Below, one piece after another: positions 48,412 to 64,000 of a stretch of 64,000 nucleotides of DNA. The stretch spans positions 992,001 through 1,056,000 of the forward strand of contig NZ_CP053382.1 in the NCBI RefSeq assembly GCF_014931605.1, in the 5' to 3' direction. The position numbers were made by a program, and so were the translations under genes. Positions within the stretch are counted from its first letter, which is position 1, and every line of letters begins with the position of its first letter. Origin of the DNA: Halomonas sp. MCCC 1A13316. GTDB lineage: Bacteria > Pseudomonadota > Gammaproteobacteria > Pseudomonadales > Halomonadaceae. A model generated the notes under the pieces. It was given only the letters and a program-made list of their open reading frames with translations, was not told where the DNA came from and ran no database searches.

Positions 48412-48488
<77 letters not shown>

Positions 48489-48583
48489 AATTTCCTTCCC
48501 GCTCCATCCCAGAACATGCCATAAACCCCGCAACCATGGGCTTCATTGGTTGGGCGACGTTTCATGACATGTCAGAAAGATTC

Positions 48584-48652
48584 TTGACATGCCCCCTCCA
48601 AAGGGGGCATCAATGGGGGCACAACCACATGATGCCCATTTGGTGCCCCCAT
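48584..48652. promoter_or_regulatory. Array of GGGGGCA half-sites and a -35 over the integrase start
   Basis: TTGACA (48584-48589), overlapping ATGCCCCCT (48589-48597), a 4-base spacer, and AGGGGGCAT (48602-48610): a perfect 9-base inverted repeat. Then ATGGGGGCAC (48613-48622) pairs with GTGCCCCCAT (48643-48652), which contains the integrase start codon; GGGCATCA (48605-48612) pairs with TGATGCCC (48630-48637). The repeats interlock, so they cannot all pair at once. Operator or alternative RNA structures controlling the integrase are the likely roles. Confidence 0.6.
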
Positions 48653-49934
48653 GAGCCAACGCCAGACCAATAAACTGACCGCCACCGCTGTGCGCAACGC
48701 CAAGCCTCGCGATAGGACCTATCGCTTAGCCGATGGGGGCGGTCTCTATTTGGAGGTGACTCCGTCCGGCGGAAAATATTGGCGGCTGAAGTACCGCTTC
48801 CACGGGAAGGAGAAGCGCCTGGCTATCGGCGTCTATGGCTCGAAGGACGGCGAGGTATCGCTTGCTCAGGCCCGGGACGAGCGGGACAAGGCAAAAAAGC
48901 TTTTAGCTCAAGGTTCAGATCCCAGCACCGTCAAGCGTATCGCCAAGCTGGAGGGCAAGGCCGGTGTGGCGAACACCTTCAGGGCCGTAGCGACAGAATG
49001 GCTGGAAGAAGTTCACAAGCATAATGTCGTGCCGACGCACTACAGCAAGAACAAGAGCCGGCTAGAACGTGATGTCTATCCTTACCTGGGCAGCCGACCT
49101 GTAGCGGACATCACCCCGCTCGAATTGCTGGAGTGCTTGCGCAAGGTCGAGAAGCGGGGGCACCTGGAGACCGCGATTCGCATCAAGACCGTTGTGGGCC
49201 AGGTCATCCGGTATGCCGTCACCACGGGACGAGCTGACCGTGACCCAACGACCGACCTGCGAGGCGCCTTGCGACAGCCAACAGTGAGCCATTACGCGGC
49301 CATCACCGATCCCGAAGAACTCACCGGGCTCCTCCGTGCAATTGATGGCTATCGCGGCCAGCCTGTCACGATCGCTGCTCTGAAGCTGGCTACCTTGCTG
49401 TTCGTGCGTCCCGGTGAGCTGCGCCATGCGGATTGGAAGGACTTCGATCTCGATGAAGCAATCTGGAGCTTCCTGCCTAGCAAGAACTCACCGCCGCTGA
49501 TTGTGCCGCTACCCCGGCAGGCCGTGGCCATTCTTCGTGAACTCTATCCTCTCACCGGTCGCGGACACTTTGTCTTGCCTGGCCTGCGCAGCAGCAAACG
49601 CCCGATGTCCGAGAACACGATGAAGGGCGCCCTGGATTCCATGGGGTACAAGGGAAGACAAACCGCTCACGGCTTCCGGGCCACGGCGAGAACAATCATC
49701 GCTGAGCGCTTGGATTACCCCGAGCATTACGTTGAGCAACAGCTGGCTCATAAGGTGAAAGATGCCAACGGCCGAGCCTATAACCGGACCAAATTTTTGG
49801 ATCAGCGGCGGGAGATGCTGCAAACGTGGGCGAACTACTTGGACGAACTTCGTGAGGGGCTGGATAACGCTGAGCAGTATCGCCATGGCAGAGAAGACGA
49901 GTCACGTAGAAACGCAGCTCTTGCGGCTGGCTAG
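48651..49934 (+). CDS. int: P4-type tyrosine integrase
   Basis: 427 residues. N-terminal DUF4102 domain (TATAVRNAKPRDRTYRLADG, cut here), SAM-like core-binding domain about 105-190, C-terminal catalytic domain with Arg253 (RPGELRH), His340-x-x-Arg343 (HGFRA) and nucleophile Tyr377 (AYNRTKFLDQRR). All catalytic residues are visible, so it looks functional. Starts 162 bases after the tRNA CCA end, the standard layout for tRNA-targeting islands. Confidence 0.95.
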   Translation: MSQRQTNKLTATAVRNAKPRDRTYRLADGGGLYLEVTPSGGKYWRLKYRFHGKEKRLAIGVYGSKDGEVSLAQARDERDKAKKLLAQGSDPSTVKRIAKLEGKAGVANTFRAVATEWLEEVHKHNVVPTHYSKNKSRLERDVYPYLGSRPVADITPLELLECLRKVEKRGHLETAIRIKTVVGQVIRYAVTTGRADRDPTTDLRGALRQPTVSHYAAITDPEELTGLLRAIDGYRGQPVTIAALKLATLLFVRPGELRHADWKDFDLDEAIWSFLPSKNSPPLIVPLPRQAVAILRELYPLTGRGHFVLPGLRSSKRPMSENTMKGALDSMGYKGRQTAHGFRATARTIIAERLDYPEHYVEQQLAHKVKDANGRAYNRTKFLDQRREMLQTWANYLDELREGLDNAEQYRHGREDESRRNAALAAG

Positions 49935-51409: not shown

Positions 51410-52507
51410 GGCGGTCTCAAGTTCCAAGCGCAACACTATTGAAGGGTGCCCGGTCCAGCGACCGATTTCTTGAGCACCTCGGAATAGACTTCCAGAGGCG
51501 TTCGCCAGTCCAATGTCTTGCGCGGTCGTGTGTTCAAGGAATCCGCAATGGCATCGAGCTCTTCCTGGCTATAGACCGACAGGTCCGTGCCCTTCGGCAG
51601 GTACTGCCGCAACAAACCGTTGGTATTTTCGTTAGAGCCTCGTTGCCACGGGCTATGGGGATCGGCGAAATAGATGGCCGTCCCGGTCCGTTGTGTGATC
51701 TCGGCATGCTGCATCATCTCCCTGCCCTGGTCGTAGGTCATGGAGAGCCGCAAGGCGCGTGGGACCTCGTTCAGCTTGTCGCTGAACCCGATGGCAGCGG
51801 CGGTGGCCGTCGTGCCGTCCAGTTTGGCCAGTATCACCAGGCGCGTGGTGCGCTCCACCAGCGTGCCGACAGCGGATCGGTTGTTGGCTCCCATGATCAG
51901 GTCACCTTCCCAGTGGCCGGGCATCAGGCGGTCTTCGATCTCGGGCGGCCGCATATGAATGCTAACCAGGTCCGGGATCTGGCCACGCCGGTCTTTACCC
52001 CGGCTGCGCGGCCGACGCTTGCCGTTGCCCTGCCGCAAGCAGGCGATGAGCTCTTTCTTGAGAGAGCCTCGGGGCATCACATAGAGCGCGTTGTAGATGG
52101 TCTCGTGGGAGACCTGGCGGCGATTATCATCAGGAAACATGAGTGACAGTGTGCTGGCGATCTGCTGCGGTGACCAGTACTGGCGCAGCAGATAGGCGAC
52201 TAAATCGAATAGCTCGCTGCCGGGATGCAGCTTTGGTTGCTGACGTGGCCGGTGACGCGCCAACCGAGCTCTATAGCCTGCCAGGCTGGCATCGTAGCCT
52301 CTGCTGGCATCGACCGTATGGCGAGCAAGCTCCCGTGACACGGTACTTGGCGCGCGCCCCAAGTGAGCGGCGATGGCCCGGATCGAGTGGGTGGTTCGCA
52401 TCATCATGATGGCGGCTCGGTCTTCAGCAGTGAGGTGGCGATAGCAATGAGGCATGGCAACACGATACCTGATGGGTCAGGTGTTGCACTTCGTCATTGA
52501 GACCGCC
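51410..52507 (-). mobile_element. IS30-family insertion sequence, complete
   Basis: 1,098 bases with terminal inverted repeats: GGCGGTCTCAA... at 51410-51436 and its mirror at 52481-52507, matching at 22 of 27 positions. One transposase gene on the minus strand. No obvious 2-3 base target duplication (AAT on the left, GGG on the right), which could mean sequence change after insertion. Confidence 0.88.
51436..52455 (-). CDS. IS30-family transposase
   Basis: 339 residues. N-terminal helix-turn-helix (HSIRAIAAHLGRAPSTVSREL), then a DDE RNase H-like domain: GHWEGDLIMG (Asp), MTYDQGREM (Asp), and NENTNGLLRQY (Glu), with the HSPWQRGSNEN block diagnostic of IS30. Intact and probably active. Its stop codon touches the left inverted repeat. 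Confidence 0.95.
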   Translation of the reverse strand: MPHCYRHLTAEDRAAIMMMRTTHSIRAIAAHLGRAPSTVSRELARHTVDASRGYDASLAGYRARLARHRPRQQPKLHPGSELFDLVAYLLRQYWSPQQIASTLSLMFPDDNRRQVSHETIYNALYVMPRGSLKKELIACLRQGNGKRRPRSRGKDRRGQIPDLVSIHMRPPEIEDRLMPGHWEGDLIMGANNRSAVGTLVERTTRLVILAKLDGTTATAAAIGFSDKLNEVPRALRLSMTYDQGREMMQHAEITQRTGTAIYFADPHSPWQRGSNENTNGLLRQYLPKGTDLSVYSQEELDAIADSLNTRPRKTLDWRTPLEVYSEVLKKSVAGPGTLQ

Positions 52508-53030: not shown

Positions 53031-54362
53031 ATGCGTAACCTGAGCTATCCTGCAATTATTCGGACAAGCAAGTTAAGAAGCTGGGAGGCGGTCGGTTCAA
53101 GCGCAGCACATACATGGCGGACAATGCCCGTTGCTCATGCAAACCAGGGCAAAACCCACCTCAACGAAAATTGGCGAGACGTGAAAACGCCTGTCGAGTT
53201 GCGTCAAACGCTTGAAACACGTCTGCTTATCGCCGATCAGAAGTCTAAAACACCAGTATTAGCTATAGAGTATTTAATTACTGCTCCTCACGCGGCTTTT
53301 CAGGAAAATGGTGGGCCAGTGGAATGGCGCAATTATTTTGAGGATGCTCTGGCTTGGATAGAGGAGCGTCACGGGCGGGATAATGTAGTTGCAGTCAACA
53401 TACAATTGGATGAAATTACGCCTCATATGGTTGCCTATGTGTGCCCCTTGGCTTATATGGAGGCAACGACACGAAAACGTTCTGTACTAGGTAAGAAAGA
53501 TCCTCTGACCGGTCAGCAGCAACGAGAATTGCGTGAATATAAAGTACCTGAGCATATTGTATTAAGCGCTGATCACTACCTTGGTTCACGTGAGAAAATG
53601 ATATTGATGCAGTCTGATTTCGCTGAAAAGGTGGGAAGCCGCCATGGTCTGCGTCGAGGTGTTGAGCGTAGTGCTCTTAAACATGTAGATTTGAAGCAGT
53701 ATCATGATGCTGTGATGCGGGGGGGTAAAACTAGTTTAAAGATAGACCCTGATCTACTCCAACGCAAAGGAGGGTTGCTCTCAAGAGAGACTCCAGAGCA
53801 GGTGGCAGCACGGCTGGTAGAAGTGCTTCAAGCACAAGTTGCTCCTCTTGCTGCCCAGGCAGCAACTGCAGAACTAGATCGTCGCCGTGCCGAAGAGTGG
53901 AAGAAAACTGCTGAAAATGCACAGGCAGATCGTTATCGAGAGATTGAAAAACATCGCAAAACGCGACTGGAAAATGAGAAATTTATTGGTGGTCTCAGTC
54001 TCGCGGAGTTGGAAAAAGTTCGCCAATACCGATTAAAGTGTCTAGCGCAGCGAGAAGAAGAAAGGAAGAAGCTCCACGCCGAAAAACAGAAAATGCAGGC
54101 AAAGCACGTTAATAAGATCGTAGCTTCCGTACGGTATATGACAGCTGAGCAAGTTGTGGACCTGTCTGATAGCGAACGCCGTGCTCTATGGCAGGAGATG
54201 ATCAAGCACGATGCACTTGAACCGGAGCTTGAGCGCCTCATGAGTAGTGGTTTATTCGAGCCTGACGGCGCACTTTGCAGAGTGCCTATGAAGCGGGAAT
54301 CTGACGAAAACCTAAACTTGTTTCAGGTGACGCCAACTACCGCGAAAGATTTTGGAAGGTAA
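53031..54362 (+). CDS. MobV/Pre-like relaxase with non-canonical histidine motif
   Basis: 443 residues; ATG at 53031 with AAGGAG seven bases upstream. The N-terminal 220 residues follow plasmid recombination/mobilization enzymes (HLNENW near residue 44, and the EYLITA block). The usual metal motif HxDExTPHxH reads Q125-L-D-E-I-T-P-H132-M-V134: two of three histidines are replaced. Residues about 265-380 form a charged coiled coil. AT-rich codon use as for the orphan gene. The Mob family call is good; DNA nicking activity is uncertain. Confidence 0.8.
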   Translation: MRNLSYPAIIRTSKLRSWEAVGSSAAHTWRTMPVAHANQGKTHLNENWRDVKTPVELRQTLETRLLIADQKSKTPVLAIEYLITAPHAAFQENGGPVEWRNYFEDALAWIEERHGRDNVVAVNIQLDEITPHMVAYVCPLAYMEATTRKRSVLGKKDPLTGQQQRELREYKVPEHIVLSADHYLGSREKMILMQSDFAEKVGSRHGLRRGVERSALKHVDLKQYHDAVMRGGKTSLKIDPDLLQRKGGLLSRETPEQVAARLVEVLQAQVAPLAAQAATAELDRRRAEEWKKTAENAQADRYREIEKHRKTRLENEKFIGGLSLAELEKVRQYRLKCLAQREEERKKLHAEKQKMQAKHVNKIVASVRYMTAEQVVDLSDSERRALWQEMIKHDALEPELERLMSSGLFEPDGALCRVPMKRESDENLNLFQVTPTTAKDFGR

Positions 54363-54557: not shown

Positions 54558-55121
54558 CTATCGGTTAGCCCCCGGTACCCAGAGCACGTCTTGGGAGCCA
54601 TTGGAATTGGCCTTACGGGCTGAGACGAATAACAGGTCGGAGAGACGATTCATGTATCGCAAAGTTTCGAGATGGCTCGGCGCGCCTTCCACCAGCTTGC
54701 TTATAAGCCGTTCTGCCCTTCGGGCTATGGTGCGGGCCATATGTAAGTGAGCGGATAGCTGGGTGCCGCCAGGGAGGATGAACGAGCGCAAGCTCTCCAG
54801 ATCTGCATTGAATTCGTCAATTCTCTTCTCGAGAAATTCAACCTGTGACGAGGTGACTCGCAAGGGGGGAAAGGGCGGGGCATATTGATCGGGCGTGCAC
54901 AGATCAGCACCGACATCAAACAAATCGTTCTGGACCCTGGTTAGCAGGAGTTTCATGTCGCCCTTGGCATGGCACTGCGTCAAGCCAATGGCGGCGTTAG
55001 TTTCGTCCACCGTGCCGTAGGCTGCCACTCGCAAATCATGCTTTGCGACCCGGGTTCCATCACCAAGCCCAGTTTGTCCCTTATCGCCAGTGCGGGTATA
55101 GATCTTGTTGAGCTTTACCAT
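54558..55121 (-). CDS. Cob(I)alamin adenosyltransferase, PduO/MMAB type
   Basis: 187 residues from the start at 55121 (MVKLNKIYTRTGDKGQTGLG); AGGAG eight bases upstream. Family motifs: TRTGDKGQTGLGDG (ATP site), YGTVDETNAAIG, and FILPGGTQLSAHLHMART followed by RRAER and RYMNRLSDLLF. Makes adenosylcobalamin from cob(I)alamin and ATP, and delivers it to AdoCbl enzymes. Last gene of the mutase operon, clearly serving the mutase encoded there. Confidence 0.95.
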   Translation of the reverse strand: MVKLNKIYTRTGDKGQTGLGDGTRVAKHDLRVAAYGTVDETNAAIGLTQCHAKGDMKLLLTRVQNDLFDVGADLCTPDQYAPPFPPLRVTSSQVEFLEKRIDEFNADLESLRSFILPGGTQLSAHLHMARTIARRAERLISKLVEGAPSHLETLRYMNRLSDLLFVSARKANSNGSQDVLWVPGANR

Positions 55122-55143
55122 TCCGATTTCTCCTGCGAGGGCT

Positions 55144-56055
55144 TTATTGCTTGGCATATTGGCCGAGTGTTCTAAGGATGTCGGCATAGGCTTCTGCCAG
55201 GCTCGTTGCATCGAGCAACTGAGGCTGATGCTCGAGCAGTTCGGAGACGCGACGTACGATCAGCGATTGAACGTGATAGTGGCGCCGCCGCCGCAGTGTT
55301 TCGCTGGCGTTGCGGTGCTCTGCCTGCCAGGCGAGGTGTTCACTGATGGCAGAATCCAGCTTGGCCAGCCCCTCTTCGTGCTGCTGGCTGACCTCGATCA
55401 CCGGGGGGCGCCACGCTGCCTGAGAGCGCTGGACGATGCCACGGATTTCCAAGGCACTCTTCTTGGAGCCGGGCAGGTCGGCCTTGTTGATCACGTAAAT
55501 ATCGGCGAGTTCGAGCACCCCTGATTTCATCGCCTGGATGGCATCGCCGGCGTTGGGCTGCAGGACCATCACCAAGGTGTCCACTGAGTGGCGAATGGCG
55601 TGCTCGGCCTGGCCCACGCCTACTGTTTCTAGCAGCACTTCACGAAATCCGTAGATCTCTACGGTTTCCAGTAGATCCAGCACGTTGTCTGCCAGGCCGT
55701 CGTTGGAACTGCGGCTAGCCAGCGAGCGGATATAGAGTTCTGGTTCGTTGGCGATGGCGTCCATGCGGATACGGTCACCGAGAATCGAACCGCCGGTCAG
55801 TGGGCTGGTGGGGTCGATGCCGAGGATGGCGACGCCGCCCTGGTCGCGGCAGGCGGCCAACCGAAGCTTGGCAAGCCGACTGATCAGGGTGCTCTTGCCG
55901 GCGCCTGGTGCGCCGGTAAAACCGATACGTGCCGTCTGCATGGAAGGCTCGGGGCGCTGGGCACTGTGTGCCAGGCTTTCCGCCACCGACGCCTGGGCCA
56001 GGCGGGTCAGCTCGCGGCCGAGCGCGCGGCGCGAACGAGGGGCAAGACCACTCAT
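55144..56055 (-). CDS. meaB: MeaB/ArgK G-protein chaperone of AdoCbl mutase
   Basis: 303 residues from 56055. Walker A GAPGAGKSTLI, switch regions around GIDPTSPLTGGSILGDR and ETVGVGQAE, base-recognition NKAD. GTPase that gates cofactor loading and protects the acyl-CoA mutase from inactivation. Adjacent to mutase and adenosyltransferase genes as expected. Gap of 22 bases to the adenosyltransferase gene. Confidence 0.95.
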   Translation of the reverse strand: MSGLAPRSRRALGRELTRLAQASVAESLAHSAQRPEPSMQTARIGFTGAPGAGKSTLISRLAKLRLAACRDQGGVAILGIDPTSPLTGGSILGDRIRMDAIANEPELYIRSLASRSSNDGLADNVLDLLETVEIYGFREVLLETVGVGQAEHAIRHSVDTLVMVLQPNAGDAIQAMKSGVLELADIYVINKADLPGSKKSALEIRGIVQRSQAAWRPPVIEVSQQHEEGLAKLDSAISEHLAWQAEHRNASETLRRRRHYHVQSLIVRRVSELLEHQPQLLDATSLAEAYADILRTLGQYAKQ

Positions 56056-56056
56056 G

Positions 56057-57235
56057 TCAGCCTCCGCTAGCGTTGTGCGAAACGTGACTCTGCCCATCCA
56101 GTTCCTCGAACTTCCCGGCATCTTCGTCGAGTAGCGGCGGGGGGCCGTAGTGGGTCGGCTGGCCCTGAAGCTTGATGGGGTTTCCCACCATGCGGATCTC
56201 GCCATGTGGCGTGGGCACCGAGACGACCATCTGCCGTGAGCGCGTCAACTCTGATTCCAGGGCATCCTCCAGGCTCTGGACCCCGGCCACGACCACACCG
56301 AGGGGGGCGAGTCGTTCGACCCAGCTGTCGGTGGAGCCCGTGGCCAGCACCGCCTGGACATCGGCGATCACCGCCTCGCGATTCGCGGTGCGTGCGGCCA
56401 TCGTGGCGTAGCGCGTATCGGTGATCCAGGCTTCGCAACCGATCTCACGGCAGAAGTCGGCCCAGAAACCGTCGTGGGTGATGAACAGTGCCAAGTGGCC
56501 GTCCTGGGTAGGAAAGATCTGTGCCGGAACGATGTAGGGGTGGCCGCCGCCGGGGTAGCGCTGCGCCTTTTGCCCGGCGTTGAGGTAGCCCCCTGCCAGG
56601 TAGTTGAGCTGCGAGAGCATGGTGTCGTAGAGGGAAACGTCCACTTGGCCGCCCTTGCCCTCGACCAGCTTGGCGGTAAGCCCCAATGCGCCCATGATCC
56701 CGGCGGAGTTGTCGACCACGGAGTAGCCGGTCTTTACTGGCGGGCCATTCGGGTCACCGGTCATGGCCATGACGCCGGCCAAGGCTTGAATGACGTAGTC
56801 GTAGGCGGGCTTCTCGGCGAAAGGGCCCTCGAGGCCGAAGCCTGTCAGTGCCAGGCAGACGATCTTGTCGTTGTACTTGCGCAGGGCCTCATAGGTCAGC
56901 CCCAGCTTGCGGACAGCCGCGGGCCGCACATTGGTGAGCAGGGCGTGTGAATTTGCTGCCAGTTCGCCCAGGCGCTGTTGTCCTGCCTCGCTGGTCAGAT
57001 CCAGGCTGATGCTGCGCTTGTTGCGGTTGAGGCTGGCAAAGTAGGCGTTGTGGGGGCCGATGAAGTGGGGGCCGATCTGGCGGCCGATGTCGCCTTTCCG
57101 GGGAGCCTCGATCTTGAGCACTTCAGCACCCAGGTCGGCAAGCAACATGCCGCAGTAGGGGCCTGCCAGCATATGGCTCACCTCGAGGATGCGGATACCG
57201 CTGAGCGGGCCTGAGGGGGTGGCGGTATGGCTCAT
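56057..57235 (-). CDS. Class III (CaiB/BaiF) CoA-transferase
   Basis: 392 residues from 57235. GIRILEVSHMLAGPYCGMLLADLGAEVLKIE is the diagnostic opening (cited in part), with the catalytic aspartate expected in the SVVDNSAG/AGIMGA region, and SYDYVIQALAGVM-like AYDYVIQALAG. Transfers CoA between a donor acyl-CoA and a free acid, often a dicarboxylate. Within an AdoCbl-mutase operon it probably activates the incoming substrate, perhaps with succinyl-CoA as donor. Overlaps the upstream B12-subunit gene by 4 bases. Confidence 0.93.
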   Translation of the reverse strand: MSHTATPSGPLSGIRILEVSHMLAGPYCGMLLADLGAEVLKIEAPRKGDIGRQIGPHFIGPHNAYFASLNRNKRSISLDLTSEAGQQRLGELAANSHALLTNVRPAAVRKLGLTYEALRKYNDKIVCLALTGFGLEGPFAEKPAYDYVIQALAGVMAMTGDPNGPPVKTGYSVVDNSAGIMGALGLTAKLVEGKGGQVDVSLYDTMLSQLNYLAGGYLNAGQKAQRYPGGGHPYIVPAQIFPTQDGHLALFITHDGFWADFCREIGCEAWITDTRYATMAARTANREAVIADVQAVLATGSTDSWVERLAPLGVVVAGVQSLEDALESELTRSRQMVVSVPTPHGEIRMVGNPIKLQGQPTHYGPPPLLDEDAGKFEELDGQSHVSHNASGG

Positions 57236-57627
57236 GATAGCTCCCTCTCGATGGCACGTATGACCTCTTCCAGTGGCATGTCGGCGGTGAACACGCCGCA
57301 TACCCCGGCTTCGATCAGGGCCGCGCGGTCTTTCTCGGGAATGGTGCCGCCCACGAAGATCTTGATGTCGCTGGCGTCGTACTCTTCCAGACAGCGCATG
57401 GTGTCGCTGACCAGCGCCATGTGGCTACCGGACAGCATGCTCAGTCCCACCACGTCCACGTCCTCATCCACCGCCACCTTGGCGATATATTCCGAGCTTT
57501 TTCGCAGCCCGGTGTAGATGACGTCGGCACCGGCGTCGCGAAGCGCCAGGGCGATCACCTTGGCGCCTACGTCATGGCCGTCCAGGCCGGGTTTGGCGAT
57601 CAGAATTCTCTTTCCTTTCAAGCTCAT
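57232..57627 (-). CDS. B12-binding subunit of an acyl-CoA mutase
   Basis: 131 residues from 57627. Base-off/His-on cobalamin motif DGHDVGAKV (lower axial His), SML for the SxL motif, and GGTIPEKD for the GG motif. The SGSHMALVSD stretch resembles small subunits of isobutyryl- or hydroxyisobutyryl-CoA mutases more than fused methylmalonyl-CoA mutases. Pairs with the large subunit upstream, so the enzyme is heteromeric. Confidence 0.95.
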   Translation of the reverse strand: MSLKGKRILIAKPGLDGHDVGAKVIALALRDAGADVIYTGLRKSSEYIAKVAVDEDVDVVGLSMLSGSHMALVSDTMRCLEEYDASDIKIFVGGTIPEKDRAALIEAGVCGVFTADMPLEEVIRAIERELS

Positions 57628-57661
57628 GGGGTGTCTCCACTGGGGATGGGTGAGGGCCGGC

Positions 57662-59272
57662 TCACAGTCGGATGGGTTCCTGAAACTCGCCCCACTGCGA
57701 TTTGAGCGTGGCGACCATCTCGCCCACCGTGGCATAGGCGTGGCAGCAGTCGATCAGGTAGGGCATGAGATTTTCGTCATCCTTCGCTGCGGCCCGTTCC
57801 AGGGCTTTCAGCGTCTGCTCCACCTTGGCCGAGTCGCGCTCGTCCAGGACGCGCCGATACTTCTCCTGCACTCGCTGCGCGGCCTGCGGGTCGACCTTGA
57901 ACACCTCCCCGAAGTCGTCGCTCTGATCGTCACGGCGGAAGTAGTTTTGTCCGACGATGACGGTCTCTCCCTTGTCAACCTTCTGCTTGCGCTCATGGGC
58001 ACGCTCGGCGATGCGCGCCTGCAGGTAGCCATCCTCGATTGCCTTCTCCACCCCGCCATACTCATCGATTTCTTCGATGACCCGTCGCGTTTCTTCTTCC
58101 ATCTTGTCGGTGAGCCATTCCACATAGTGGCTGCCCCCCAGGGGGTCCACGATCTTCGAGATGCCGCTCTCGTAGGCGATGATCTGCTGGGTGCGCAGGG
58201 CAATCTCGGCGCTGAACTCGGTGGGGATCTGGAAGGCCTCGTCATAGGCGCAGGTGAAGACCGACTGTGCGCCGCCCAGGGTGGCTGCCAGCGTCTCGAT
58301 GCCCACGCGCACGATGTTGTTGTAAGGCTGGGCGGCGGTCAGCGAGGAGCCGCCGCAGACCACCCCGAAGCGGAAGCGCTGCGCCTTGGGGTCGGTGATG
58401 CCGAAGCGCTCCTCCAGCAGGGCTGCCCAAAGGCGACGTGCCGCGCGGAACTTGCAGACTTCCTCGAAGAAATCCATGTGGACGTAGAAGAAGAAGCTCA
58501 GCCGGTTGGCGAACTTGGCGGCATCGCCACCACGGCGCATCAGCTCCTCGACGTAGGCCAGGCCATTGGCCAGGGTATAGCCCAACTCCTCTACCGCGGT
58601 GGCGCCAGCGTCGCGCACGTGGGCGCCGGCGATGCTGATCGGGTTGAAACGCGGGGTCTCGCGGTTGGAGAACAGGATCGTGTCCGAGATCAGACGCATT
58701 GAGGGGCGTACCGGGAAGATCCAGGTGCCGCGGGCCACGTACTCCTTGAGAATGTCGTTCTGGATGGTGCCGGTGAGTTTTTCGCGCGGCACGCCCTGCT
58801 TGTCAGCCACCGCACAGTACATGGCATAGACGATGGCTGCGGTGCCGTTGATGGTGAAGGAGGTGGAAATACCGCCCAGGTCGATGCCATCGAAGAGGAT
58901 TTCCGCTTCGGCGAGGTTGGATAACGAGACCCCTACCTTGCCCACTTCGGAGCGTGCCATGGGGTCGTTGGGATCGAAGCCGCACTGGGTGGGCAGGTCG
59001 AGGGCCACCGAGAGGCCGGTCTGGCCGCTTTCCAGCAGGAAGCGATAACGCTCGTTAGTGTCCTCTGCAGTGCCGAAGCCGGAGTACTGACGGAACGTCC
59101 ATAGTCGCCCGCGGTAGCCGTTGGGAAAGATGCCGCGTGTGTAGGGTGGCTCGCCGGGGTTTCCCGGGTCGGGTTGGCGGAGCATGTCGGGAGTGATTCG
59201 CTCGGGAATCTCGATACCGGAGGCGGTATGCGGCGCAGGAATGGGGGGTGTGCGGTTTCCGGAATCGCTCAT
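57662..59272 (-). CDS. AdoCbl-dependent acyl-CoA mutase large subunit, divergent subfamily
   Basis: 536 residues, substrate-binding TIM barrel only. Retained from methylmalonyl-CoA mutase: Tyr63 in RQYSGFG, Arg181 in VARGTW (the pair that contacts substrate carboxylate) and His218. Changed: GYH becomes GAH (Ala217), HTQT becomes GVVC (303-306), and LHTN becomes VFTC (338-341), though Glu345 stays. These motifs are near invariant in methylmalonyl, ethylmalonyl, isobutyryl and hydroxyisobutyryl mutases as I recall them. Likely acts on an acyl-CoA with a free carboxylate but with a different pocket. Default annotation as methylmalonyl-CoA mutase would be unsafe. Overlaps the crotonase stop by 4 bases. 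Confidence 0.93.
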   Translation of the reverse strand: MSDSGNRTPPIPAPHTASGIEIPERITPDMLRQPDPGNPGEPPYTRGIFPNGYRGRLWTFRQYSGFGTAEDTNERYRFLLESGQTGLSVALDLPTQCGFDPNDPMARSEVGKVGVSLSNLAEAEILFDGIDLGGISTSFTINGTAAIVYAMYCAVADKQGVPREKLTGTIQNDILKEYVARGTWIFPVRPSMRLISDTILFSNRETPRFNPISIAGAHVRDAGATAVEELGYTLANGLAYVEELMRRGGDAAKFANRLSFFFYVHMDFFEEVCKFRAARRLWAALLEERFGITDPKAQRFRFGVVCGGSSLTAAQPYNNIVRVGIETLAATLGGAQSVFTCAYDEAFQIPTEFSAEIALRTQQIIAYESGISKIVDPLGGSHYVEWLTDKMEEETRRVIEEIDEYGGVEKAIEDGYLQARIAERAHERKQKVDKGETVIVGQNYFRRDDQSDDFGEVFKVDPQAAQRVQEKYRRVLDERDSAKVEQTLKALERAAAKDDENLMPYLIDCCHAYATVGEMVATLKSQWGEFQEPIRL

Positions 59273-60045
59273 GGAGATTTCCTCGTATTCAGAATCTTGT
59301 CGGCGGCATCCCAGTGATCGTCATGTGTCCAGGTGGCGACGAGATGGCGGGTCTCGATCTCGGCCAGTTCTGCTTTCGACAGACCGTCGGTATGGCTCAG
59401 CGCAAGGGCCTTGAAGCCCCGCAGGACCTGAGGTGCCTGGGCGAGCATGGGCTTGGTGAACTGCTCGACACATTGCTCGAGCGTCTGACCCTCCTCGGCC
59501 ACTTGGTCAATCAAGCCGATGCGCTGTGCGGCATGGGCGTCGAGTAGCTCGGATCGGGTCAGCAGGCGCAATGCCAGCGGTGCCGGGAGACGGCTCAACA
59601 GGCGAGCGCCGCCGCCCCAGGCGGTCGTGATGTTGAGCTTGCCCTGTATGAAGCCAATGCGGCTGGTGGGTGGGGCGATGATGAAATCGCAAGCCACGGC
59701 GAGTTCTGCGCCACCGCCAATGGCATCGCCATTGAGGGCGGCGATGACGGGAACCGGAAACTGGCTCACCGCATCGAGCGCGCGCCTTGCTTCGTGGCTC
59801 ATGGTGGTGGCTTGCTCTTCGCTGCGTACCTGAGCGAGATCCCGCAGATCGCCACCGGCGGCGAAGCTCTTGTCACCGGCACCGGTCAGCACGACCACCT
59901 TCAACTCTGGGATTGCCGCCTGCTCAGTAAAGACGTCGGCGAGTTCATTGAGTACCGCCCGGGACAGGGCGTTGCGTTTCTCGGGACGATGGATAGTCAC
60001 CCTCAGCAGAGGGCCTTGCGCGTCGACAAGAAGATGTTCGGCCAT
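59269..60045 (-). CDS. Crotonase-superfamily protein lacking the second hydratase glutamate
   Basis: 258 residues from 60045, GGAG seven bases upstream. Oxyanion-hole segments FAAGGDL and NGDAIGGGAEL. Glu114 (E144 of rat enoyl-CoA hydratase) is present; the E164 position is Gly135 (FIQGKL). The LNITTAWGGGARLL segment resembles ethylmalonyl-CoA decarboxylase (ECHDC1) more than hydratases. First gene of the operon. Likely a decarboxylase or editing enzyme for malonyl-type CoA thioesters, by analogy with E. coli ScpB next to Sbm; not proven. Confidence 0.88.
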   Translation of the reverse strand: MAEHLLVDAQGPLLRVTIHRPEKRNALSRAVLNELADVFTEQAAIPELKVVVLTGAGDKSFAAGGDLRDLAQVRSEEQATTMSHEARRALDAVSQFPVPVIAALNGDAIGGGAELAVACDFIIAPPTSRIGFIQGKLNITTAWGGGARLLSRLPAPLALRLLTRSELLDAHAAQRIGLIDQVAEEGQTLEQCVEQFTKPMLAQAPQVLRGFKALALSHTDGLSKAELAEIETRHLVATWTHDDHWDAADKILNTRKSP

Positions 60046-60075
60046 GGAGGCGCTCCGACGGAGGATGTTGGCGTT

Positions 60076-60100
60076 GTTTATTTCCGCATAATGAATAAAC
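60076..60100. promoter_or_regulatory. Inverted repeat between the mutase operon and the MFS gene
   Basis: GTTTATT (60076-60082) and AATAAAC (60094-60100), perfect arms with an 11-base centre. It contains TTC-N7-TGAATA (60082-60097), a pattern found again upstream of the IclR gene, so it is a candidate IclR operator controlling both divergent transcripts. Confidence 0.5.
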
Positions 60101-60189
60101 ATACTTATATGTGAAATTATCTGTCAAGTTGAGGTATCCCCAGCAAGCCGATCCTCGGGACTGGGCACCGAGGTGAAAGGAGCCATGGC

Positions 60190-61443
60190 ATGCCGAAGTT
60201 TCTCCCACCTGCAGCAACGCTTGACCAACCCCCGGCCTCTAGGTGGGAGGCTTGGATCGTGGTGGCGACTACCACTTGGGTGCAGGCCTTGACCAGTGCC
60301 GCCATGCTGCTGGTGCCCGTGTTGGCACCGCAGATCGCGGCCGATTTCGGCATCCCCACCGGCCTGGTGGGGATGCAGGTGAGTTTGCTGTATGGGATTG
60401 CCATGCTGGTGTCGTTGCAGGCAGGATCGCTGGCGCGGCGCCTCGGTGCCTGTCGCTCCAGTCAGGTGGCCATGGCCCTGGTAATGTTGGGCTGCGCGAT
60501 GGCAGGGGGCGGCACGCCGGCCGCGCTGCTGCTTACCACATTGCTTCTCGGCGTTGCCTACGGCTTGACCAACCCCGCGGCGGCACAGCTTCTGGCGCGT
60601 TATACGCCGCTGCGCCATCGCAACCTGCTCTATTCGATCAAGCAGTCCGGTGTTCCGCTGGGTGGTGTGCTGTCGGGCTCCCTGGCGCCGTCACTTGCTC
60701 ATGCCTGGAGCTGGCACGCCGCGTTTCTTGTCTTGAGCCTGGCCGCGCTGGTCACCGGTTTGGCATTGCAGCTGCGGCGCCGCGATTGGGACCGCGATCG
60801 CGCGCCCACCACGCTGCTGCGGGGCTCCGGCAGCCTCACCGTGCTCTATCGGCGTCCGCAGATACTGTGGCTCGGGATGGCTGGGTTCTGTCTGGCTGCA
60901 GCGCAGTTGTCACTGTTGAGCTTTACTGTGGCGTTCATGGTGGAAGAGCTACTGATTACCCTCGTCACGGCCGGGGTGATTATGTCGGTCGTTCACGCTT
61001 CTGGCGTGTTTGGCCGCGTTGGCTGGGGGATGCTGGCCGACCGATTGGGCCGGAGTGTTCCCGTGTTGTGCGGCCTGGCCGTTGCCATGTTGGTGTTGTT
61101 TGTCGCGGTCTCACTGCTGGGGCCAGACACCCCGGTCTGGCTGGTGATAGCGCTGCTGAGTGCCGCCGGGGGCACGGCGATTGGCTGGAACGGCGTTTAC
61201 CTTTCGGAGGTAGCGCGGCGCAGCCCAAAGGCCGAGGTGAGTGAGGCTACCGCCGCGGTTCTGGTGCTGACCTACATGGGAGTGCTGACTGGGCCCGCGT
61301 TGTTCAGTGTCATCGTCTCGCTCGGTGGCAGCTATTCTGCCGGCTTCCTGCTTCCGATGCTGGCGTCGCTGCTGGCGCTGTTCTGTCTCAGGGCGTCCAG
61401 TCGCACCCAGGAGGTGCCGAGCGCTCACGGCATCGATAGGTAA
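60190..61443 (+). CDS. MFS transporter
   Basis: 417 residues, 12 spans. Starts ATG with a spaced GAAAGGAG upstream. Family signs: loop 2-3 GSLARRLGACRSSQ, span 5 SGVPLGGVLSGSLAP with the GxxxG pattern, loop 8-9 GMLADRLGRS. Divergent from the crotonase-mutase operon, sharing the candidate operator; likely uptake or export of the same acid. Substrate unknown. Confidence 0.88.
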   Translation: MPKFLPPAATLDQPPASRWEAWIVVATTTWVQALTSAAMLLVPVLAPQIAADFGIPTGLVGMQVSLLYGIAMLVSLQAGSLARRLGACRSSQVAMALVMLGCAMAGGGTPAALLLTTLLLGVAYGLTNPAAAQLLARYTPLRHRNLLYSIKQSGVPLGGVLSGSLAPSLAHAWSWHAAFLVLSLAALVTGLALQLRRRDWDRDRAPTTLLRGSGSLTVLYRRPQILWLGMAGFCLAAAQLSLLSFTVAFMVEELLITLVTAGVIMSVVHASGVFGRVGWGMLADRLGRSVPVLCGLAVAMLVLFVAVSLLGPDTPVWLVIALLSAAGGTAIGWNGVYLSEVARRSPKAEVSEATAAVLVLTYMGVLTGPALFSVIVSLGGSYSAGFLLPMLASLLALFCLRASSRTQEVPSAHGIDR

Positions 61444-61482
61444 CGCCTATACGTACCGGAGCGTCGGTACAGCAACGGTTTA

Positions 61483-61800
61483 TTCCACAGCAGCGTACGG
61501 GACACGGATACGGGGCGTTCCTTGGGTTTTCCCGTGTGGTACACGCAAGTCAGTTCGATTCATCCGGACAAATGTGGGCACGGTCGGGTCAACGCACCCA
61601 TCGTGTGCGATGGCGTGACTATGAATCCGGGGGGCGCATTGTCGCTAACGGAGATGGTGACTTGCGCGTGCCGAAGCAATACGCCGACGAGGTGGTGGAC
61701 CTTGCTATCGACCGTACCCAAAAGGAGGACGAAGCCATCGAGGCGATTGATTGCCAATGGCACCTCCCTTGGGGAGTTGAGTGGAGCGGCGGCAAGCTCT
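61483..61800 (+). pseudogene. Remnant of an RraA-family aldolase gene
   Basis: Readable pieces: SSVRDTDTGRSLGFPVWYTQ, then HGRVNAPIVCDGVTMNPG in one frame, and after a shift near 61632 RIVANGDGDLRVPKQYADEV and RTQKEDEAIEAI. These match the second half of RraA/HMG-aldolase-like proteins (VRD motif, VNPGD, GDxDGVxxVP, and E-K-E tail). The N-terminal half is missing. Clearly non-functional. Confidence 0.7.
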
Positions 61801-61882
61801 GCGGGGACCATCAACGAACTCGACCAAGTCTTTGATGATGGGGCCCTCCGAGGTGAGCCATTGATGACGGGAGGCGTTAGCC

Positions 61883-62515
61883 ATGAAAACAATGCAGCCG
61901 GTGGCAGGGGAGCCTATCAAAGGCACCGATGTATTGGCTCATGGCCTGCCTGGTGGCACTGGGTGTGACGAGGGTGTTCTGCTAGCCGGGCGGTGCCAAC
62001 CTGGAGGTTCTAACGCTCTGTCCCGTGAGGGACATCGGCGACCCCGAGGCCTCCGCCCATGCTGCCCGTATCGTGCATATCGATGTGGAAACCAACGAGA
62101 TCGGTAAAACCAAGCCTGTATATATGGACATTACCGCCGACCCACCGCATGCACTCTGGCAACTGCTGGAGATTGCCATGCCGCTTGAAACCAGCGAGTG
62201 GCAAGGCTACCTGAAGCGGGTTGACCTCCAGTATCCGCTGGAGCCGATATTGAAAGAGGGTGTCATGACGGGGGCGTCGGTCATTGCCTGTCTGCCCGGT
62301 CACCTGCCATCCGACCTATTGTCACGACGGGTGTCGGCCAACAACAGATGTGGGCGATGCAGCACTGACAGGTATCAACGCCGCGTGGCTTTCAGTTCAG
62401 CTCTGGATTCGGCAGCATAGGATTCGAGTGGCCAGCCGGCATTGGCGCGAAGGTGGCATCGCCGTGTTCCACCATCATCGATATCGATAGCGAGGGGGGA
62501 AAGACAGCATGGACG
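61883..62515 (+). pseudogene. Remnant of an acetolactate-synthase-like TPP enzyme gene
   Basis: Starts MKTMQPVAGEPIKGTDVLAHGL, then by frameshift LVALGVTRVF, stop, PGGAN (the TPP-enzyme N-terminus). An internal deletion leads to the central domain (AARIVHIDVETNEIGKTKPV), another deletion to VGQQQMWAMQH, a stop, and FQFSSGFGSIGFEWPAGIGA, and finally STIIDIDSEG. About two thirds of a normal 550-codon gene is lost, with several stops. Confidence 0.75.
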
Positions 62516-62538
62516 ATTCGTGAATGCCACGGGCCAAG

Positions 62539-63327
62539 TCAAAGCGAGGCCAGCCGGTCGCCATGTCGCATCAGGGCCTCGCGGTACCGCTCGTAGTGAC
62601 GGGACATCCGCTCCATCGGCCCGGCAATTGCCAGCCCCAATGTTTCACCAAACACCGGTCGGGCGATGGCCATTGCCATCACGTCATCGACATTCTCGCC
62701 GCGAGTGACGAAGTAGCCGCGACGCTGGCCATTAAGGATATCATCTAGCAGTTGGTCGCGGTCAGTAATGGTGCTCGATGTCACGCTGGGCAAGGGAAGA
62801 CGCTCCAACAGACTCTGCAACTGCACGCCGCTTTCCTCGCCGAGCATGGCCTTGCCGATGGCACTGGAGTGTAACGGTTTGGCGTCACCGGGACTCGCGG
62901 CATAGCGCACGGTATGGGTGCCTTCGATGATGTCGAGGTACACCACGCTGTGATCCTGGCGCTTTCCGAGAATCACGGTTTCACCGAGTTCGTCCCGAAG
63001 GTCCTGCAGCACGGGCGAGACACTCTCGAGCAGCGGGTCATGCGAGGCGATCGACTGGGCGACCTGCAGCAGCCGCTTAGTCGGGTAAACGCGCTTCTTT
63101 CGCTCCAATACGTAGACGTAACCCAGGGTCTGTAGTGTCTTGACCAGGGCGTGGCAGCTGCTGACCGGGGCATCGATGCGCTTGGCAAGATCCGTCAGCG
63201 AGAGAGGGGTCTGGGCTTTGGCGAAGGCTTCGAAGAGGCTCAGGGTACGGGCTGCCGTCTTGACGCTTTCGGGCCGGGAAGGGGCTTTCTGGCCAACGCC
63301 GGTACTGACGCTAGAGGCTTGCTTCAT
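62539..63327 (-). CDS. IclR-family regulator
   Basis: 262 residues from 63327 (MKQASSVSTG); a longer start at 63366 lacks a ribosome site. N-terminal winged helix (RTLSLFEAFAKAQTPLSLTDL, cited in part; IDAPVSSCHALVKTL recognition helix), C-terminal effector domain (TVRYAASPGDAKPLHSSAIGKAML). Divergent from the TRAP binding-protein gene and close to the mutase operon; likely senses an organic acid or CoA-pathway intermediate and controls both. Confidence 0.92.
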   Translation of the reverse strand: MKQASSVSTGVGQKAPSRPESVKTAARTLSLFEAFAKAQTPLSLTDLAKRIDAPVSSCHALVKTLQTLGYVYVLERKKRVYPTKRLLQVAQSIASHDPLLESVSPVLQDLRDELGETVILGKRQDHSVVYLDIIEGTHTVRYAASPGDAKPLHSSAIGKAMLGEESGVQLQSLLERLPLPSVTSSTITDRDQLLDDILNGQRRGYFVTRGENVDDVMAMAIARPVFGETLGLAIAGPMERMSRHYERYREALMRHGDRLASL

Positions 63328-63423
63328 AGTGACTCGTCCATTGCTCTTGAGGCCCCGCCGATCCACAAGGGTACTTGATGCGCTAGGGTTTGCGAAATTC
63401 GGTCATGCGACTCTTTCATATTA

Positions 63424-63439
63424 TTCGATTTGCTGAATA
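63424..63439. promoter_or_regulatory. Candidate IclR operator between iclR and TRAP genes
   Basis: TTC (63424-63426), seven bases, TGAATA (63434-63439), within TATTC-N8-GAATA symmetry. Shares the TTC-N7-TGAATA pattern with the site at 60082-60097. Lies about 97 bases upstream of the iclR start. Confidence 0.4.
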
Positions 63440-63604
63440 GTATTACGCATGGGTGAAAATCTGCTAGGTTTGTACCAAGCAGTAAAACGAGCCGGCAGCA
63501 GTTTGAGAGAGCTTGCGCTCCGGCAAACTTGACCCCCAGGGAAGGACGACATTTCCAAGCGAGCAAAGCCAACGCACCACGGACACGCCAAGAGGACAAC
63601 AACA

Positions 63605-64000
63605 ATGCCTATCATCAAGCATCGATTTTCGTTTAGCCTGAACGCCCTCACTTTCAGCGCTGCGGGTTTTCTTACGCTCGGTCTGGTGTCGCCGGACTCG
63701 GAAGCACAGGCCCGACTGGCCATGGGCGGCACCCACAGCGGCTCAGCCTTCTACTCCTACCAGGTAGCCGTGGTATCCGATTGGAACGACAACGTTGACG
63801 GCGTCAACATGAGCATCCAGGAGCTGGGAGGTGCCTCGGCATCGACCCAAGGGCTGCTACGCGGCGAAGTCGACATGGGCATCGCGGTTACATCTTCCGA
63901 TCACCAGGCCATGCAGGGCGAGGGTGAGTATGGCTCGCCGGCAGAGAACCTGCGCACCCTGTATTTTTTCGCACCGCTGCCGCTGAACTGGGTCGTTTCG
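63605..64000 (+). CDS. TAXI-family TRAP transporter substrate-binding protein (partial, 3' end outside)
   Basis: First 132 codons; ATG at 63605 with AGAGG nine bases upstream. Signal peptide about 1-37 (AQA cleavage), then RLAMGGTHSGSAFYSYQVAV and LLRGEVDMGIAVTSSDHQAM, matching TAXI (TRAP-associated extracytoplasmic immunogenic) proteins. Such systems take up dicarboxylates or glutamate-like acids using an ion gradient. Membrane components should follow beyond the window. Probably supplies the substrate of the mutase pathway. Confidence 0.85.
   Translation, partial: MPIIKHRFSFSLNALTFSAAGFLTLGLVSPDSEAQARLAMGGTHSGSAFYSYQVAVVSDWNDNVDGVNMSIQELGGASASTQGLLRGEVDMGIAVTSSDHQAMQGEGEYGSPAENLRTLYFFAPLPLNWVVS

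Follow-up and report, generated by a model that had tools for sequence, protein, structure and literature searches.

In this study, we analysed a 64-kb stretch of DNA, hereafter the window, from the single-contig genome (4.49 Mb) of Halomonas sp. MCCC 1A13316, with focus on a six-gene operon on the minus strand at 54558–60045 that encodes a two-subunit adenosylcobalamin (AdoCbl)-dependent acyl-CoA mutase. With coordinates given for the likelier internal starts, the operon comprises, in operon order, a crotonase-superfamily enzyme and probable alkylmalonyl-CoA decarboxylase (59269–60045, ECH_1; the open reading frame (ORF) runs from 60102, the likely start is 60045), the large, substrate-binding mutase subunit of 536 amino acids (aa) (57662–59272; MM_CoA_mutase PF01642, 646 bits), the small, B12-binding subunit of 131 aa (57232–57627; TIGR00640, and PF02310 with 81 bits), a class III (CaiB/BaiF) CoA-transferase (56057–57235; CoA_transf_3, 371.9 bits), a MeaB-type GTPase chaperone of the mutase (55144–56055; PF03308, 218.6 bits) and a PduO-type cob(I)alamin adenosyltransferase (54558–55121; TIGR00636, 194 bits at a cut-off of 108). 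The consecutive intergenic gaps are −4, +34, −4, +1 and +22 bases, from which we conclude that the six genes form a real operon; the coupled arrangement described in the initial annotation, made from the sequence alone, was thus recovered with all its named genes. Pfam and NCBIfam families matched were Cob_adeno_trans, MeaB, CoA_transf_3, B12-binding, MM_CoA_mutase and ECH_1, and the family assignments of the operon genes are secure. Further matches to MFS_1, IclR and a TAXI-type solute-binding protein confirmed that MFS, IclR and TAXI-TRAP genes flank the operon, as had been described. Between 50000 and 64000 of the window no Rfam family reached its gathering score, hence no known cobalamin riboswitch was found there.

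A scan of genome contigs yielded 272 confirmed relatives, the best 80 of which, together with four plasmid loci, make up the 84 loci used here. All are about 70% identical or more, and conservation counts therefore describe this subfamily rather than all relatives. The association of the genes is far above chance: the crotonase gene lies directly upstream of the mutase in 76 of 79 loci with enough flanking sequence, the small subunit directly downstream of the large one in 83/83, CoA-transferase and MeaB genes follow the mutase in 51 and 54 of 64 loci, respectively, and every neighbour match (290/290) is on the mutase strand. The genome-neighbourhood search that had been suggested for the gene set thus returned a recurring block, with an adenosyltransferase in 8 of 51 well-flanked loci. 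Among the same 51 loci, 35 had an IclR gene no more than 10 kb from the mutase, 9 a TAXI gene with a fused TRAP permease, in two classes, 8 an MFS gene, and 9, 7 and 3 a TctC-, LivK- and DctP-type binding protein, respectively; at least one of the binding-protein or MFS types sought was present in 25. Transporter and regulator genes alone were recognised as likely partners in L009 and L012, both from Halomonas relatives, and also in L049 and L061, which suggests that the unit acts directly on the compound taken up. Gene content and recurrence support the earlier notion of a self-contained unit for uptake, CoA activation, rearrangement and cofactor supply.

Within the genus the operon is accessory, since a full-length copy of the mutase was found in 4 of 48 other genomes, while 43 gave no match to the mutase query at E 1e-3. 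One same-genus genome retains as its sole trace a 112-residue fragment, 88% identical (G012:C9:2163-2498), reflecting decay or a broken assembly. Among 274 evenly drawn gammaproteobacterial genomes, 3 matched at E 1e-200, the own genome being one of them. The mutase clade recurs in Alpha-, Beta- and Gammaproteobacteria and is apparently uncharacterised; among the papers listed in searches of the open-licence PubMed Central (PMC) literature, none appears to describe the cluster.

Both domains that characterise methylmalonyl-CoA mutase (MCM), MM_CoA_mutase and B12-binding, are present, distributed over two subunits, and the D-x-H-x-x-G motif of the small subunit occurs in 84/84 sequences. For pocket analysis, 85 family sequences were aligned to reference mutases and are discussed in MCM numbering, where we take Tyr89 and Arg207 to bind the substrate carboxylate and Tyr243, His328 and Gln330 to be pocket positions. 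The positions of Tyr89, Arg207 and His244 (Y63, R181 and H218 in the window protein) are invariant in 85/85, and the substrate should accordingly bear a free carboxylate. The positions of Tyr243, His328 and Gln330, which the MCM references retain, are occupied in 85/85 by alanine, glycine and valine (A217, G303 and V305), and the pocket is probably roomier than that of MCM. At the Asn366 position 73 sequences carry Cys and 12 Ala, and all 85 have Ser in place of Trp334, which is not diagnostic since this residue is Val in two MCM references and Ser in the Ilyobacter mutase. Glycine at 328 is shared with L140, L141 and two ethylmalonyl-CoA mutase (ECM) references recognised by motif, L140 and L141 having Ser at 334 as well. 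A quick maximum-likelihood tree of 38 rows, 17 of them from the family, united the latter in one clade (SH-aLRT 100) apart from the MCM, ECM and 2-hydroxyisobutyryl-CoA mutase (HCM) references; its neighbour is the distant mutase of L143, which sits on a long branch of uncertain place and carries Ala-His at positions 243–244, as in the family. Moreover, 14 of 29 host genomes searched contain an additional fused mutase (ORF of 721–961 residues, 42–46% identity) that appears MCM-like by size and identity; the other 15, all six Halomonadaceae among them, have none. Judged by its residues, the mutase of the operon is not a typical MCM. The available portions of PMC11599936 and PMC10481361 hold no residue map.

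The crotonase, nearly always found beside this mutase, can be assessed by the catalytic glutamates of rat enoyl-CoA hydratase, Glu144 and Glu164. The first is kept as E133 in 81/81 sequences and the second is never Glu (Gln in 72, His in 9 of 81), whereas Glu occupies this position in each of the five hydratase-type chains inspected. ScpB, the methylmalonyl-CoA decarboxylase of E. coli, likewise lacks this second glutamate, which makes a decarboxylase likelier than a hydratase, and we consider the enzyme to be probably an alkylmalonyl-CoA decarboxylase. A role as enoyl-CoA hydratase is unlikely, given the absence of the second catalytic glutamate in 81/81. The family is further marked by Trp162 (79/81), Trp258 and His263 (both 81/81), and the AlphaFold model (pLDDT 92.8) has the crotonase fold. 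The enzyme may resemble the mammalian ethylmalonyl-CoA decarboxylase ECHDC1. As far as the source was available, ECHDC1 is described just by a GGGAEFTT motif with a conserved glutamate (PMC6717113). Ordinary hydratases are similar in this motif.

The remaining operon products are consistent with CoA activation and cofactor supply. The CoA-transferase combines the CoA_transf_3 domain of class III enzymes with Asp168, which we take to be the catalytic aspartate and which is present in 64/64; its top NCBIfam match, succinate-glutarate CoA-transferase, scored 257 bits, far under the cut-off of 750. By family, it probably charges the imported dicarboxylate. MeaB scored 230 bits with TIGR00750, slightly under the cut-off of 241, and its P-loop glycines and lysine are conserved in 63/63. 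MeaB and adenosyltransferase families serve cofactor loading and repair for the mutase.

We therefore propose, with a probability of roughly 45%, that this is a catabolic operon in which an imported alkylsuccinate would be converted via alkylsuccinyl-CoA and alkylmalonyl-CoA to a decarboxylated acyl-CoA. The proposal draws on the conserved crotonase–mutase pair and the frequent CoA-transferase, on a mutase that keeps the dicarboxylate-binding residues while carrying Ala, Gly and Val at 243, 328 and 330, and on the coexistence of a fused MCM-like mutase in about half of the hosts searched. It is further suggested by the glycine at 328 held in common with the two ECM references, whose substrates are C5 dicarboxylyl-CoAs, and by the distant L143, where the operon of the mutase with Ala-His at 243–244 also encodes a crotonase that has 31% identity to ScpB (27% to the window crotonase). 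That operon (L143:4885-8939), in a genome of the same order, consists of MeaB, small subunit, ScpB-like crotonase and large subunit. The direction from alkylsuccinyl-CoA to alkylmalonyl-CoA to acyl-CoA is suggested by the probable decarboxylase function of the crotonase.

In the proposed sequence of events, the TAXI-TRAP system would import a branched dicarboxylate, to which the class III CoA-transferase would add CoA, probably from succinyl-CoA or from the pathway's own acyl-CoA. The two-subunit mutase would then move the CO-SCoA group to give the alkylmalonyl-CoA, with Tyr63 and Arg181 presumably holding the free carboxylate and the replacements Y243A and H328G making room for the branch, while MeaB and the adenosyltransferase would load and repair the cofactor and the IclR protein is the likely regulator. 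Finally, the crotonase would decarboxylate the alkylmalonyl-CoA to a saturated acyl-CoA destined for beta-oxidation, which would be butyryl-CoA from methylsuccinate and isovaleryl-CoA from 2,2-dimethylsuccinate. Formation of a saturated acyl-CoA is in line with Cycloclasticus locus L077, where the operon is followed by genes for an AMP-binding enzyme, a thiolase, an OB-fold protein, a crotonase, an SDR (short-chain dehydrogenase/reductase) and an acyl-CoA dehydrogenase.

Among small compounds, methylsuccinate and 2,2-dimethylsuccinate are the foremost candidates, although our confidence in any single substrate is much lower than in alkylsuccinates as a whole. 2,2-Dimethylsuccinate is a gem-dimethyl compound that is not attackable by beta-oxidation and needs a skeleton rearrangement, which would account for the presence of a mutase as well as for its roomier pocket. 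Of the candidates listed in the initial annotation, methylsuccinate is retained and the others are dropped on chemical grounds. Methyl- or ethylmalonate would render the mutase needless if the crotonase decarboxylates them, an itaconate-like acid would give, as itaconyl-CoA C4 thioester, a compound without hydrogen on the carbon beside the carboxyl group, where the reaction should abstract one, and a glutarate-type substrate would have no one-step conversion to a malonyl-CoA. The list should be extended to 2,2-dimethylsuccinate and other alkylsuccinates.

Several observations weigh against an alkylsuccinate pathway. The main basis for calling the crotonase a decarboxylase is the absence of a single glutamate, at an identity to ScpB of 23%, and neither a search of the PDB with a profile of the crotonase alignment (best 60 of 223 matches) nor a structural comparison (50 entries listed) brought up a decarboxylase among the matches shown. 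Both gave hydratases and other crotonases, many at near-equal scores, an outcome that excludes no function. The structure model of the mutase (pLDDT 73) is too poor to analyse the pocket. No recognised CoA-transferase stands behind the mutase in 13 of 64 loci. With the query used, just 2 of 51 loci showed an acyl-CoA dehydrogenase close to the cluster, and the diversity of neighbouring enzymes described below could reflect a diversity of substrates. In addition, according to the part of PMC12290011 available, a mutase-free methylsuccinate route exists in other bacteria.

The latter, the itaconate/methylsuccinate cluster of Cupriavidus and Pseudomonas, resembles the Halomonas operon in a CoA-transferase that acts on branched C5 dicarboxylates including methylsuccinate, but proceeds by dehydrogenase, hydratase and lyase, and the word "mutase" is absent from the text available (PMC12290011). 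The closest published logic we found is that of indoleacetate degradation by IaaL, IaaGH and IaaF from Aromatoleum aromaticum, in which, as far as the source was available, a CoA-transferase and an arylsuccinyl-CoA to arylmalonyl-CoA mutase are followed by loss of the malonyl carboxylate (PMC8360864). In contrast to the crotonase here, IaaF is, by the same partial source, an oxidising acyl-CoA dehydrogenase, and IaaGH is likened to the present mutase by reaction logic, not by sequence. No indoleacetate genes were seen at the Halomonas locus. It is conceivable, though on balance doubtful, that the operon represents an undescribed aerobic, B12-dependent route for alkylsuccinates including 2,2-dimethylsuccinate, with a further kind of AdoCbl mutase and a dedicated crotonase, as aerobic counterpart of the anaerobic alkylsuccinate route. 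To our knowledge, few substrate specificities have been established for AdoCbl acyl-CoA mutases, and here a recurring clade shows consistent pocket changes together with a nearly fixed partner enzyme, while the transporter-only form in the Halomonas relatives renders the substrate question directly testable. If the proposal is true, it would suggest a disposal route for branched dicarboxylates from terpenoid, methyl-aromatic or itaconate metabolism in aerobic bacteria, including marine ones, and would add a mutase–decarboxylase pair for synthetic pathways.

The strongest competing explanation, which we nevertheless regard as unlikely, is that the mutase acts on another dicarboxylyl-CoA, such as an aryl- or hydroxylated succinyl-CoA or one derived from a dicarboxylate made upstream by the 2-oxoglutarate/iron (2OG-Fe) oxygenase, SDR and aldehyde dehydrogenase (ALDH) whose genes adjoin the cluster in Betaproteobacteria, with the crotonase serving as hydrolase, isomerase or in some other step. 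A 2OG-Fe oxygenase lies near the cluster in 14 of 51 loci, an ALDH in 6 and an SDR in 5, and the region upstream of the unit in L005 contains a second TRAP gene set together with GST, MOSC and oxidoreductase genes. The phenylsuccinyl-CoA mutase IaaGH provides a precedent, and an enlarged pocket would fit. However, the operon holds no aromatic-ring genes, and in loci L009, L012, L049 and L061 transporter and regulator are the sole likely partners recognised. The neighbouring enzymes may either produce the same dicarboxylate from larger precursors or indicate different substrates. In the marine alphaproteobacterial set, counted over the 51 loci, LLM oxidoreductases and hydroxyisobutyrate-dehydrogenase-like proteins occur in 8 each, and sulfopyruvate-decarboxylase-like beta and alpha subunits in 8 and 7. 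Several of these loci (in L015–L034) have an LLM oxidoreductase, one or two 2OG-Fe oxygenases and the hydroxyisobutyrate-dehydrogenase-like and sulfopyruvate-decarboxylase-like subunits around the mutase block, a neighbourhood that by its gene content would constitute a longer pathway.

Considerably less probable is an MCM pathway with a swapped CoA-transferase, in which succinyl-CoA would be converted via methylmalonyl-CoA to propionyl-CoA and CoA recycled by the transferase. This would follow the logic of the E. coli sbm operon (ScpA-ArgK-ScpB-ScpC), which likewise unites mutase, MeaB, crotonase-superfamily enzyme and CoA-transferase, and the likeness noted in the initial annotation stands, as do the differences it named in mutase and CoA-transferase family. 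The mutase is 45% identical to ScpA, with the positions of Tyr89, Arg207 and His244 kept, but it is split where ScpA is fused and differs in its pocket residues; the crotonase is distant from ScpB, the CoA-transferase belongs to a family unrelated to ScpC (no meaningful BLASTP match, best E 0.38), and a dedicated IclR gene and transporter stand beside the Halomonas operon, which makes little sense for succinate. The mutase also stays below the MCM equivalog cut-off (NF006944, 558 of 876 bits), though this model describes the fused enzyme and penalises a split one, and the replacements at 243, 328 and 330 are as constant in the family as the residues themselves are in MCM references. Propionyl-CoA could enter via PrpB, which was found above its family cut-off in the own genome, where CobS is also present. 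A genome-wide search with TIGR03081, in contrast, gave no methylmalonyl-CoA epimerase over cut-off (three sub-threshold matches, best 35 of 115 bits), from which, together with the presence of PrpB and CobS, we conclude that propionate is probably metabolised by the methylcitrate route, and no second acyl-CoA mutase was found in this genome. No acyl-CoA ligase or carboxylase was noticed among ORFs of at least 100 aa at 50–64 kb and of at least 150 aa in the next 20 kb, which were read by eye without a profile search. The earlier view that ordinary propionate metabolism explains the locus poorly is borne out by these results, and an ordinary MCM is unlikely on account of its pocket residues, the fused MCM-like mutases coexisting in other hosts, the separate clade and the lack of an epimerase over cut-off.

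An ECM (MeaA) pathway was rejected, since the mutase, although probably a dicarboxylyl-CoA mutase and with Gly at the His328 position and Arg-Gly-Thr at Arg207, is not ECM-like: the two ECM references are fused (661–672 aa), keep Tyr243 and Gln330 and branch elsewhere in the tree, and the operon has no dehydrogenase or lyase. Very improbable is a monocarboxylic acyl-CoA mutase of the HCM, isobutyryl-CoA mutase (ICM) or pivalyl-CoA type, even though the family groups with HCM rather than MCM or ECM in the quick tree (SH-aLRT 92) and the best-scoring solved structure is that of HcmAB (4r3u, 484 bits), which has a separate large subunit as well, because HCM and ICM carry Ile or Phe at 89 and Gln at 207 (Ile and Gln in 4r3u), while the Tyr/Arg pair, present in 85/85 here, marks dicarboxylate mutases. 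Two further mutases were encountered among the loci. On a Sinorhizobium plasmid (L097:2000-8898), an operon comprises aminotransferase, B12-binding subunit, MeaB, mutase, crotonase and AMP-binding enzyme, its mutase being HCM-like with Val and Gln at positions 89 and 207. A very divergent mutase (L144:7200-8900, 39% identity) from the genome of L035, a Burkholderiales metagenome-assembled genome, sits on a long branch and has unusual residues around the His244 motif.

Regarding the flanking genes, the MFS transporter gene (60190–61443, plus strand, MFS_1) is divergent from the operon and adjoins the cluster also in L008 and L009, while none was found in L010–L013. The IclR-family regulator is encoded at 62539–63327 on the minus strand (IclR_C, HTH_IclR; ORF from 63366, ATG at 63327). 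The roughly 1.1 kb between the two (61444–62538), in which two ORFs were tested and gave no Pfam match, has the look of an insertion or of genes in decay; the IclR and MFS frames that correspond to them in L009 touch each other. The TAXI-family TRAP solute-binding protein gene on the plus strand (63605–64000; NMT1_3, partial TIGR02122) continues beyond the window end to L002:621, L002 being the adjoining DNA, and is followed by a fused TRAP permease gene (L002:725-2764; TIGR02123, 541 bits). TAXI-TRAP genes come directly after MeaB in three loci from Alphaproteobacteria (L005, L049 and L061), and the link between transporter and enzymes is therefore not an accident of one lineage.

The surroundings of the operon are probably a genomic island. 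Near the operon lie an integrase gene, which comes immediately after tRNA-Met, and a gene of Mob_Pre type (48412–49934 and 53031–54362), and two IS30 transposase genes on the same strand, at 51436–52455 and at L002:7606-8625 (71606–72625 in window numbering), encode proteins that look identical by eye. This pair encloses the operon, the IclR and TAXI-TRAP genes and an amino-acid ABC transporter set, resembling a 21-kb composite transposon. Further downstream, at L002:10011-20000, families of FAD monooxygenase, alpha/beta hydrolase, arylmalonate-decarboxylase/maleate-isomerase-like, [2Fe-2S] and cytochrome c proteins were matched, a gene set that we take to resemble the aerobic nicotinate-degradation pathway.

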